Assembly: GCA_025058735.1 (NCBI GenBank)
Contig: JANXDX010000009.1
Coordinates: 1 to 54,995 of the forward strand
Length of the DNA stretch: 54,995 nt
Source: Archaeoglobaceae archaeon
GTDB lineage: Archaea > Halobacteriota > Archaeoglobi > Archaeoglobales > Archaeoglobaceae
Direction of reading: 5' to 3'
In this document: in pieces, positions 44,594 through 48,727 of the stretch
Layout: the number at the start of each line of letters is the position of its first letter
Position numbering within the stretch: the first letter of the stretch is position 1
Notes under the pieces: model-generated
The model's database searches: none
Told to the model about the DNA's origin: nothing
Seen by the model: only the letters and a program-made list of their open reading frames with translations
Position numbers and translations under genes: made by a program

Positions 44594-46072
44594 ATGAAGT
44601 TCAAAGTTAAAGTGTTACCTCTTAGAAGCGAAAAGTTTTGTGTTTTGATGAACAGTGAAGACTCACGAGATCTCGGCATATTGCCGGGGGATCGGGTTAA
44701 AGTTGTAAAAGGTAAAAAATCTTTTGTTGCAGAGGTTGAAATTGCAGATTTTGTTAATAAAGGAGAAATTGGTGTATGTAGTTTTACTGCTGAAAGTTGT
44801 AAAGTTGATGAATGTGTTGTTGAAGTTTATCCAATTACAAGGTATGAAAGTGTTGAATACATAAGGAAGAAACTTGATGGTTTCAGATATACGAGGGAAC
44901 AGATTAGAAGGATAATTCTTGACCTAGCTTCAAACGTTTTGAGTGATGTTGAACTTTCTGCGTTTGTTTTAGCAAACGAGATCCTCGGAATGGACACTGA
45001 TGAAATAGGATGGTTTACAGAAGCTTTAGTTGAAACTGGAGAAAAATTGACCTTTGAAAAGGGAACAGTTGTTAATACACATAGCATAGGTGGAGTTCCT
45101 GGGAATAGATATTCTATGGTAACGGTTCCAGTGTTAGCATCTTCTGGCTTGATCATTCCAAAAACTGCTAGCAGAGCAATAACTTCTGCAAGTGGAACAG
45201 CAGATACTATGGAAGTTTTGGCAAACGTGAACTTGAGCGTTGATGAGATCAAGGAGATCTGCGAGAAAGTCAACGGAGTTATAGCTCTTTCTGCAAAAAT
45301 ATCTCCAGTTGATGAGAAAATAATTAGGATGGAGCATCAGCTGGAAATTAGTCCAAAGCCAAATTTAGTAGCAAGCCTTTCAGCCAAAATAGTTGGAAGT
45401 GGTGCAAAATTTGTAACAGTAGATCTTCCAGTTGGTGCTAAAATAAACAATGTTGACGATGCTAGAATTTTATCATTAAATTTCATAGAAATAGGTAGAA
45501 GATTTGGAGTAGAAGTTGGAACTGTGATCTCAGATGGTTCACAGCCATTGTGCAAAGCTGTTGGACCTGCTTTGGAAGCTAAAGAAGTTTTAAAGGCTTT
45601 CGAAGAAAAAAAGTTTGAAGATTTTGTCGTAAAAGGGATCGAAATTGCATCAATACTCATGGAGTTTTCTGGAATAGCTTCAAATGGTTATGAAATGGCA
45701 AGAAACATATTCGAAAGTGGAAAAGCGCATGAAAAATTCCTTCAGATAATAGAAGCTCAAGGAGGTGAAATTCTTAGATCAGAAGATGTCCCCATCGGCG
45801 ATAAGAAGTACACTATAACGTCGAAGAAGGAAGGGTACGTTCAAAAGATCGATGTCAAAGCTATAAATGCCATAGCAAGAGCTGCTGGAGCACCTAAAGA
45901 TAAAGGTGCTGGAGTATATCTGCACAAAAAGAAAGGTGATGTTGTGAAGAGGGGAGATCCTATAATAACTATATACTCCGAAAAAGACTGGAAGCTTGAT
46001 TCTGCTTTGGAGATAGCATCTGAGAAAAAAATAGTAGAGATTTCTGGAGTAGTTTTAGAAACTAGGTGGTAG
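44594..46072 (+). CDS. AMP phosphorylase paralogue, diverged active-site loop
   Basis: 492 aa in the thymidine/AMP phosphorylase family. The N-terminal archaeal domain (LRSEKFCVLMNSEDSRDLGI) is followed by NTHSIGGVPGN and SGTADTMEVLANVNLS. Compared with the downstream copy, the segment WGGSTNIAPADD is replaced by LSAKISPVDE (2 residues shorter), and GGQPIGR is replaced by GSQPLCK. The enzyme may therefore have a different substrate or be inactive. Long stretches of DNA are almost identical to the second copy (see repeats). It is the first gene of the operon. Confidence 0.85.
   Translation: MKFKVKVLPLRSEKFCVLMNSEDSRDLGILPGDRVKVVKGKKSFVAEVEIADFVNKGEIGVCSFTAESCKVDECVVEVYPITRYESVEYIRKKLDGFRYTREQIRRIILDLASNVLSDVELSAFVLANEILGMDTDEIGWFTEALVETGEKLTFEKGTVVNTHSIGGVPGNRYSMVTVPVLASSGLIIPKTASRAITSASGTADTMEVLANVNLSVDEIKEICEKVNGVIALSAKISPVDEKIIRMEHQLEISPKPNLVASLSAKIVGSGAKFVTVDLPVGAKINNVDDARILSLNFIEIGRRFGVEVGTVISDGSQPLCKAVGPALEAKEVLKAFEEKKFEDFVVKGIEIASILMEFSGIASNGYEMARNIFESGKAHEKFLQIIEAQGGEILRSEDVPIGDKKYTITSKKEGYVQKIDVKAINAIARAAGAPKDKGAGVYLHKKKGDVVKRGDPIITIYSEKDWKLDSALEIASEKKIVEISGVVLETRW
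45141..45286 (+). repeat. Near-identical block A shared with 46627-46772
   Basis: 146 nt, with about 3 differences between copies (CTG/CCG, ACA/ACG, ACT/ACA). It encodes the LIIPKTASRAITSASGTADT region of both phosphorylase paralogues. The flanks diverge abruptly, with WGG starting right after the block in copy two. Confidence 0.9.
45667..45824 (+). repeat. Near-identical block B shared with 47168-47325
   Basis: 158 nt, about 6-7 differences. It encodes SGIASNGYEMARNIFESGKA and the segment through DVPIGDKKYTITS in both paralogues. Confidence 0.9.
45872..45994 (+). repeat. Identical block C shared with 47373-47495
   Basis: 123 nt, no differences seen. It encodes IARAAGAPKDKGAGVYLHKK and onward through TIYSEKDWK in both paralogues. 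Synonymous sites are also identical, which points to recent gene conversion rather than selection on protein alone. Confidence 0.92.
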
Positions 46073-46073
46073 A

Positions 46074-47588
46074 ATGATCTTGAAAGCTTTAAAACTTCCA
46101 ATTCATTCGGGAAGGTTTGTTGTTGTATTAAATGAACTCGATGCTGTAGAAATTGGTGTGATGGAAGGAGATAGATTGAAAGTAAAATTTGGAAAGAATT
46201 CTGTATACACAACAGTTCAATTAACAAAGGAAGTTGTACCTCCTGGAAGTTTGGGACTTTCAAATATTGTTGCATCTGAATTGAAAGTTCTCGATGATAG
46301 TTCTGTAGAAGTCCATCCTACGTCTAAACCGAAAAGTGTTGATTATATAAAGGAGAAGATGAAGGGGAGAAAGCTTAGCAGTGAAGAGTTGAGAGCTATA
46401 ATCTACGATATAGTGAACAACAAACTGAACGAAGTTGAAATAACATCTTTTGTATTGGGCTGTATGCTGAAAGGAATGGACTTCGATGAGATAGAGGCTA
46501 TGACTAGAGTTATGATTGAGAGTGGCGAAAGACTCTACTTTGACAGGGGGATCGTCGTTAATAAGCACAGTATAGGCGGTGTTCCAGGAAACAAGATTTC
46601 CCTTTTAATTGTTCCAATAGTAGCTTCTTCCGGCTTGATCATTCCAAAAACTGCTAGCAGAGCAATAACTTCTGCAAGTGGAACGGCAGATACAATGGAA
46701 GTTTTGGCAAACGTGAACTTGAGCGTTGATGAGATCAAGGAGATCTGCGAGAAAGTCAACGGAGTTATAGCTTGGGGTGGAAGTACGAACATAGCTCCAG
46801 CTGACGATAAGATCATAAGAATTGAACATCCTTTATCAATAGATCCACGCCCACAACTCCTTGCAAGTGTTATGGCAAAGAAAGGAGCAGTAGGAGCTAA
46901 GTACGTTGTCATGGATATACCAGTCGGTGAAGGTGCAAAGATAGAAAGTGCAGAAGTTGCAAAAAGTCTAGCAAACGACTTCATAGAGCTTGCAAAAAGG
47001 TTGGGAATTGAGATGGCTGCAGCAATAACTTACGGAGGACAACCAATTGGAAGAACGATAGGTCCAGCTTTGGAAGCTCACGAAGCTTTAAAAGCTTTAG
47101 AAAATCGTTCAGGACCAGCAAGTTTAGTCGAAAAATCTCTTGGAATTGCAGGAATTCTTTTTGAGATTTCTGGAATAGCTTCAAACGGTTATGAAATGGC
47201 AAGAAACATATTTGAAAGTGGAAAAGCACATGAAAAATTCCTTCAAATAATAGAAGCTCAAGGAGGTAAAATCTTTAGATCAGAAGATGTCCCCATCGGC
47301 GATAAGAAGTACACTATAACGTCGAGTGTTGAAGGTGCAGTAGTTTCTGTCCACAACAAAACGCTTGTAAAAATAGCAAGAGCTGCTGGAGCACCTAAAG
47401 ATAAAGGTGCTGGAGTATATCTGCACAAAAAGAAAGGTGATGTTGTGAAGAGGGGAGATCCTATAATAACTATATACTCCGAAAAAGACTGGAAGTTAGA
47501 TAAAGCAGTTGAGGTTGCTAGAAAAGAAAAACCTATAATAATTTCTGGTATGGTTTTGGAAGTTGTTAGGAGAGGTGTTGTCTTATGA
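46074..47588 (+). CDS. deoA: AMP phosphorylase
   Basis: 504 aa with all expected motifs: NKHSIGGVPGNKISLL, WGGSTNIAPADDKIIRIEHP and YGGQPIGRTIGPALEAHEAL. The family splits AMP with phosphate into adenine and ribose 1,5-bisphosphate, the first step of the archaeal AMP route that ends at RuBisCO; RuBisCO and R15P isomerase are not in this window. It starts 1 nt after the stop of its paralogue and overlaps citrate synthase by 4 nt. Confidence 0.93.
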   Translation: MILKALKLPIHSGRFVVVLNELDAVEIGVMEGDRLKVKFGKNSVYTTVQLTKEVVPPGSLGLSNIVASELKVLDDSSVEVHPTSKPKSVDYIKEKMKGRKLSSEELRAIIYDIVNNKLNEVEITSFVLGCMLKGMDFDEIEAMTRVMIESGERLYFDRGIVVNKHSIGGVPGNKISLLIVPIVASSGLIIPKTASRAITSASGTADTMEVLANVNLSVDEIKEICEKVNGVIAWGGSTNIAPADDKIIRIEHPLSIDPRPQLLASVMAKKGAVGAKYVVMDIPVGEGAKIESAEVAKSLANDFIELAKRLGIEMAAAITYGGQPIGRTIGPALEAHEALKALENRSGPASLVEKSLGIAGILFEISGIASNGYEMARNIFESGKAHEKFLQIIEAQGGKIFRSEDVPIGDKKYTITSSVEGAVVSVHNKTLVKIARAAGAPKDKGAGVYLHKKKGDVVKRGDPIITIYSEKDWKLDKAVEVARKEKPIIISGMVLEVVRRGVVL

Positions 47589-48727
47589 GTGACATTATTA
47601 GTGATGTCAGGGAAGGGCTTGAGGATGTGATTGCTTGTGAGACAAAAATTTCTAGAGTAGATTTTGTAGATGGGAAGGCTGTTTTGGAGTATAGAGGTTA
47701 CGATATAAGAGATCTTGCGTTGAATTCAACATACGAAGAAGTAGTATACCTTCTGCTCTACGGAGAACTTCCAAAGAAGTACGAGCTTGAAGATTTCAAA
47801 ATAGAACTGGCTGAGAGAAGAGAGCCTCCTCCGCAGATAATAGGATTGTTAACGCACCTACCACCTTACACGCATCCGATGGTTGTTCTTAGAACATCTA
47901 TAAGCTACATGGGTTCTTTAGATAGAAAGATAGACGTCAAGACTAAGGAAGAATGTTTGGAAAAATCTAAAAATTTGATAGCAAGGATTCCAACTGTAAT
48001 AGCTTATTTCCATAGGATAAGGACTGGAAGAAATCTAATTCAACCAAACTTCGAGTTTGGGCATGCTGCAAACTTCTTGTACATGTTGCATGGAGAAAAA
48101 CCTAGCAAAACTGCCGAAAAAGCTTTAGACATGGATCTAATTCTGCACGCTGAGCATGAGTTGAACGCATCAACTTTTGCAGCTAGAGTTGCAGCATCAA
48201 CTTTAGCAGACATGTACGCTTGCATAGTCGCAGCTACTGGAACTTTGATGGGATCTTTGCATGGAGGTGCTGCAAACGAAGTTATGAAAATGCTGAGAGA
48301 AGTTGCATCACCTAGAAGAGCTGAGGAGTACGTTAAGAGAAAACTTGAGAGGAGAGAAAGGATAATGGGTTTTGGGCATAGAGTTTACAGGGGAGTGATC
48401 GATCCAAGAGCAGAACTTCTAAAGGAGCTTGCAAGGAAGTTGTCTGAAGAGACAGGATCTATATGGTTCAAGGTAAGTGAAGAGATAGAAAGAGCTGTTT
48501 ATGAAAACAAGAAACTTTATCCAAACATAGATTTCTATTCTGCAAGTGTTTACGCAGCTTTGGGAATTCCAGACGATCTTTTCGTCAACATATTTGCAAT
48601 GGGAAGGATAGTTGGATGGTGTGCACATGTAATTGAACAGTACGAGAACAACAGACTTATAAGGCCTAGAGCAAAGTACTCTGGAGAAGTTGAGAAAAAA
48701 TACATCCCAATTTCAGAAAGGATATGA
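47585..48727 (+). CDS. gltA: Citrate synthase
   Basis: 380 aa, the short archaeal/Gram-positive type. [24 protein letters not shown] at the N-terminus, [14 protein letters not shown] (with catalytic His), [15 protein letters not shown], and [10 protein letters not shown] in the C-terminal half are the signature motifs. It condenses oxaloacetate with acetyl-CoA. It shares an operon with AMP phosphorylases and an XTPase by 4-nt overlaps. Confidence 0.95.

Follow-up and report, generated by a model that had tools for sequence, protein, structure and literature searches.

The window, a stretch of 54,995 nucleotides (positions 1 to 54,995 of contig JANXDX010000009.1, Archaeoglobaceae archaeon assembly GCA_025058735.1), contains two genes of the AMP phosphorylase family, here called A and B, lying 1 nt apart (Table 1). 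Both score above the curated cut-off of TIGR03327 (535 bits), gene A with 567 bits and gene B with 725 bits, and the nearest solved structure to both is the AMP phosphorylase of T. kodakarensis. This enzyme converts AMP or other nucleoside monophosphates (NMPs) and phosphate into the base and ribose-1,5-bisphosphate (PMC8376864, PMC9700705). The window genome also encodes both other genes of the pathway, R15P isomerase and a type III RuBisCO, the latter being cut at a contig edge. A HAM1-like NTP pyrophosphatase gene lies downstream of the A/B pair together with citrate synthase. In nearly all intact family loci examined, an AMP phosphorylase gene, single or in tandem, is found directly 5' of citrate synthase.

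Table 1. Genes, homogenised blocks and the non-converted catalytic segment at the A/B locus (window coordinates)
Feature	Coordinates	Strand	Basis
Gene A (492 aa), upstream copy of the AMP/NMP phosphorylase pair; pocket and tail diverged	44594..46072	+	TIGR03327, fold match, N-terminal tree
Gene B (504 aa), canonical AMP/NMP phosphorylase, downstream copy	46074..47588	+	TIGR03327, conserved positions
Homogenised block 1 in A	45141..45286	+	143/146 identical to 46627-46772
Homogenised block 1 in B	46627..46772	+	counterpart of 45141-45286
Homogenised block 2 in A	45667..45824	+	151/158 identical to 47168-47325
Homogenised block 2 in B	47168..47325	+	counterpart of 45667-45824
Homogenised block 3 in A (C-terminal domain)	45872..45994	+	123/123 identical to 47373-47495
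Homogenised block 3 in B	47373..47495	+	counterpart of 45872-45994
Catalytic segment of A that escaped conversion; altered WGG/APADD and GGQPIG motifs, two deletions of 2 residues each	45287..45666	+	A-B alignment
Citrate synthase, start overlapping stop of B	47585..48727	+	

A first reading of the letters of this DNA, hereafter the sequence-only reading, had described three blocks nearly identical between the two genes, including at synonymous sites, with diverged DNA between them. The alignment bears this out. The codon-aligned identity of A and B is 67.8% overall and about 55% outside the blocks (mostly 42-67%), and the DNA identity of blocks 1, 2 and 3 is 97.9%, 95.6% and 100%, respectively. 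At codons encoding the same amino acid in both genes, the same codon was used in 124 of 135 cases (92%) inside the blocks versus 74 of 152 (49%) outside (Fisher p 2.7e-16), and the longest run of identical codons, 41, was reached in none of 5000 shuffles. At the seed length used, a search of the 55-kb window found no direct repeat of at least 50 nt besides the A/B blocks.

For comparison, loci were taken from the family of the window genome, which yielded eight other complete tandem pairs, nine with the window: G007 and G009 from the window's genus, G040, G041, G042 and G045 from genus g5, and G049 and G050 from genus g4. Closed genomes consisting of a single contig are G040 (2,178,400 bp), which we take to be A. 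fulgidus DSM 4304, G050 and G014. The patchwork was present in all nine complete tandem pairs and at nearly the same positions (approximately B codons 180-230, 360-412 and 434-480), with ends varying among lineages, and every one of these pairs has the same gene order and the citrate synthase neighbour. The A. fulgidus tandem beside citrate synthase mentioned in the sequence-only reading is supported by G040, which carries the pair at that place, and the two genes have been reported as AF1341/AF1342, named 'thymidine phosphorylase' and both induced at mid-log phase (PMC3949148). A search of named genome contigs with gene A returned a single relative, in Methanoperedenaceae.

The window genome is a draft of 29 contigs, and many drafts have the pair broken or fused at the repeat, so that a read-level or assembly error copying blocks between A and B had to be considered. 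We rejected this source of the blocks as highly improbable: the closed genomes G040, G050 and G014 have the same patchwork, and in the window the A and B copies still differ at 3 sites in block 1 and at 7 in block 2. The drafts do show breakage and fusion at the shared blocks (loci L042-L046, L048, L049, L051, L052, L057, L058, L060, L061, L064-L067 and L073). Contigs end inside an AMP phosphorylase gene in G001, G004, G006, G008, G012, G013, G016, G023 and G047, and in G004 a 116-nt overlap of identical sequence, within block 1, links two contig ends. In G002 and G003, and in an incomplete copy of G008, the gene is a chimera that is A up to about codon 180 and then B, and in G043 and G044 an A gene carries the last codons of B; the junction of A and B in these chimeras lies in block 1 or block 3. 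The broken and chimeric copies most likely arose when assemblers collapsed the tandem repeat, and real deletions between A and B may also have occurred in the chimeric drafts. Such breakage and fusion at the repeat yields false single 'AMP phosphorylases'.

In the seven pairs of g1 and g5, the within-genome A-B same-codon fraction was 0.82-0.98 in the blocks and 0.40-0.54 outside. No such block effect was found in the between-genome A-A and B-B comparisons (e.g. 0.41 inside and 0.35 outside for B of G000 versus G040). Strong protein or codon constraint acting in the blocks, with no conversion at all, might be invoked for block 1, which is fairly conserved in the family, but it is refuted by this between-genome control and by the conservation profile presented below. 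Synonymous sites in the blocks are not conserved from one genome to another, and in block 2 the B copies of more distant genomes are 0.63-0.76 identical, against 0.91-1.00 for A and B within a genome in six of the seven pairs (0.74 in G009). We consider the chance of this explanation to be negligible.

Segment trees and quartets point in the same direction. Each quartet comprised A and B of two genomes, and sites were counted as concerted/orthologous/crossed. For G000-G007 the counts were 35/0/0, 48/0/0 and 33/1/0 in blocks 1, 2 and 3, and 5/29/5 and 5/20/9 in codons 1-80 and 253-322, outside the blocks. Block 2 gave counts of 48/0/0, 47/0/0 and 42/0/0, and still 11/0/0 for the close pair G042-G045. 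Gene trees by block, which had been proposed as a check, agree: in the N-terminal tree the A copies of three genera (18 rows) group together with support of 100/100, as do the B copies with 99, and in the block trees A and B from one genome mostly join. The concerted sites and the within-genome joining in the blocks imply that each lineage underwent its own recent conversions there. With same-codon fractions, segment trees and site patterns in agreement, the repeated gene conversion proposed at the outset is strongly supported, in the form of recurrent, lineage-by-lineage conversion between old A and B paralogs.

Similarity within genomes would likewise be expected if each genome had recently duplicated the gene independently, with fast divergence outside the blocks. 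For g1, g5 and g8 this is refuted by the N-terminal tree; it also fits poorly with the shared gene order and citrate synthase neighbour, and we regard it as very improbable. A tandem duplication older than the split of the genera carrying the A/B pair is the best explanation, and the earlier suggestion of an old pair is strongly supported. The AU test gave p 0.14 for adding the g4 A copy to the A clade and 0.0495 for adding g4 A together with the g6 extra copy; the g4 and g6 pairs may be separate duplications.

The direction of conversion was from B to A in all three readable cases, G042, G007 and G009. In G042, A has B-type codons 414-432, with an amino acid identity of 1.00 to B and of 0.26 to A of G045, and in G007 and G009 the A copy contains the B-type WGGATNIAPADD. 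Exact-identity tracts can be much longer than the common blocks. In G042 the tract is unbroken over codons 358-478, and in G049 (L062:5339-8418) the two genes match without a difference over 777 nt spanning the active site (codons 142-400) and remain nearly identical up to codon 490. The stretch shared in G049 resembles A until about codon 270 and B from there on, so a canonical pocket may be absent. In the closed genome G014, two dispersed copies (L071 and L070) lying about 258 kb apart round the circular chromosome are perfectly identical over 119 and 173 nt in blocks 1 and 3; the sharing of blocks over this distance indicates that conversion there needs no tandem arrangement. Another dispersed extra copy, in G054 (L068:5637-7165), is interrupted near residue 270, where it falls into two overlapping frames, and is either a frameshifted gene or an assembly error; unlike in G014, no clear tract shared with its partner was found.

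Gene A is not a decaying copy. Outside the blocks, dN/dS (YN00, from non-saturated pairs) was 0.04-0.23 for A and 0.03-0.05 for B, values showing that both sequences evolve under purifying selection. The AF2 model of A (pLDDT 88, pTM 0.83) is of high confidence along almost all of its length and has 4ga5 as its best PDB match (TM 0.89, with about 43% identity to the 4ga5 protein over the full length), and A is thus predicted to fold as a complete phosphorylase. The family motifs of B are kept, only D163N, G229N and G307A being changed among 111 conserved positions. In A, 18 of the 111 are changed, including W234, G236, A241, A243, D245, K270 and G326; these counts are based on 99 'canonical' rows, three of which are very probably A copies picked by locus, which lowers them slightly. 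The sequence-only reading had stated that the upstream copy lacks WGGSTNIAPADD and GGQPIG, and L--SAKISPVDE and GSQPLC are indeed found in their places in the alignment. Among the residues of the family site, window A retains H165, S166, S265 and K269. The A-specific residues Q253, E255, S257, D320 and V338 occur in 90-100% of A rows, and the compared A copies have a GRW(W/Y) tail, of which only RW is present in the window.

The KHSIGG phosphate-loop lysine (window B residue 164) is near universal in the compared AMP phosphorylases, with V at this place in T. kodakarensis 4ga5. It is missing in 18 of 18 A copies of g1, g5 and g8 and kept in the g4 upstream copies. Some A copies have lost H165, 8 of 18 A rows have lost G172, and WGG/APADD is changed but restored in two. 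A dead A, argued from the missing lysine, was dropped as a candidate: the active T. kodakarensis enzyme lacks the same lysine, and its loss therefore proves nothing about A. For this reason a 'lost active site' would be an overstatement. That one of the two active sites has diverged, as first proposed, holds for A of the window and not in general, since in two congeners a longer tract has brought WGGATNIAPADD back into A.

Could the blocks simply be the segments still alike enough to recombine? According to such a mechanical account, alike segments would keep recombining, drifted ones would be locked out, and the differences would not be selected. The non-converted DNA, at its low identity, is probably too diverged to start recombination, and related genera could have inherited their similar block positions. 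Part of the persistence of the blocks could be due to poor recombination of diverged DNA, with no functional selection. However, the tracts of G042 and G049 run through diverged DNA, which makes recombination mechanics alone a weaker account. Moreover, outside block 1 the best conserved windows of the family are the active-site loops (161-180, 231-240 and 261-270; conservation 0.84-0.90), and these are only partly homogenised (DNA identity 0.58-0.78), whereas blocks 2 and 3 have a conservation of 0.43-0.69 and yet a core A-B DNA identity of 0.94-1.00. In these alignments, family conservation does not predict the homogenised blocks. The mechanical account appears unlikely to us, and selection against conversion where A and B differ would fit better than mechanics alone. 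The idea that selection protects the differences, put forward in the sequence-only reading, thus gains indirect support from the escape of the conserved active-site windows, the purifying selection on A and the tracts across diverged DNA.

What escapes conversion is the catalytic segment 253-322 for the most part, together with the two ends of the protein, the N-terminal domain and the C-terminal tail. The pattern marks which parts of an NMP phosphorylase A and B may share, and it thereby predicts where their functions differ. Residues at the C-terminus have been linked to multimer formation in the T. kodakarensis enzyme (PMC8376864). This region is not homogenised, so that the position of the blocks alone is no argument for co-assembly, and converted blocks as oligomer interfaces were abandoned as unsupported.

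Together, these observations are best explained as follows. An AMP (NMP) phosphorylase gene was duplicated in tandem before the genera with the A/B pair split, and three segments have since been overwritten repeatedly in each lineage by conversion between the neighbours, from B to A where readable. Conversions into the differing parts were presumably removed by selection, A and B having separate jobs. The least certain steps concern A itself. It might serve as a specialised subunit that partners B, its nucleotide pocket reshaped and probably weaker; both proteins would be made from one mRNA and act jointly, perhaps assembled into mixed multimers, in the route from AMP via ribose-1,5-bisphosphate to ribulose-1,5-bisphosphate. 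The whole, an old tandem pair with recurrently converted blocks, selected differences and a specialised, possibly weakly catalytic A partnering B, is in our judgement probable from the sequences compared.

Between genomes, segment 231-322 of A changes 1.9-3.6 times more than that of B, the N-domain being as slow as B's; the rate interaction had p values of 5e-5 to 0.12 in eight comparisons that share sequences. This faster change of the catalytic segment but not of the N-domain counts against A being a separate, self-sufficient phosphorylase with another nucleotide preference rather than a partner subunit. The losses of H165 and G172 among A copies also speak against such an enzyme, as does the single NMP phosphorylase of T. 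kodakarensis, which already takes all four NMPs (PMC8376864). In its favour are the clustering of the A-specific Q253, E255, S257 and D320 in the pocket segment, the purifying selection on A, its complete predicted fold, and the retained H165, S166, S265 and K269, with which A could be an independent enzyme. We hold a self-sufficient A, with conversion as described above, to be possible but doubtful, and modestly prefer a specialised partner to a second enzyme acting independently. The most specific version of the partner role, in which A would be a non-catalytic or weakly catalytic regulatory subunit of a mixed A/B multimer and block conversion would keep the chains compatible while pockets and N-domains diverge, is tentative and on its own rather unlikely. 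The non-homogenised C-terminal tail counts against a partner role, and against a weak pocket it can be said that the g4 upstream copy keeps KHSIGG and that in G049 the two copies resemble each other throughout the active site; A-type pockets may therefore be active there.

The literature found on this A/B pair comprises annotations and an expression note (PMC3949148), and no published report of such conversion for an AMP phosphorylase was found in the literature searched. The kind of process is known; the A/B pair appears to be undescribed and to record, with unusual clarity, conversion and selection working against each other within one enzyme. T. kodakarensis AMP (NMP) phosphorylase TK0352 (4ga4, 4ga5, 4ga6) shares family and fold with both proteins, B being canonical. 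In contrast to the tandem pair, with one pocket and tail reshaped, a single gene is named in T. kodakarensis (PMC9700705), which is described with one broad NMP phosphorylase in the same pathway. The closest precedent is the partial concerted evolution of mtrA-1/mtrA-2 in Methanococcales and Methanomicrobiales (PMC4632066). Like A and B, these methanogen genes are archaeal paralogs in one operon, of which one part is homogenised by long-lasting, lineage-by-lineage conversion and another stays different; in A/B, trees and quartets likewise show homogenised blocks beside segments that are orthologous across lineages. In mtrA, homogenisation covers a complete domain and domain shuffling supplied the other end (PMC4632066), whereas in A/B three blocks alternate with diverged segments in one enzyme and it is the most conserved active-site loops of the family that escape.

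A second parallel is the prozyme type, in which a catalytic enzyme is paired with an inactive, activating paralog, as in the AdoMet decarboxylase of trypanosomatids. Like such a paralog, A is old, retained, diverged and made together with an active enzyme; unlike it, A keeps several catalytic residues. If the reading of A as a regulatory subunit in a mixed multimer is true, A would be a prozyme maintained by gene conversion.
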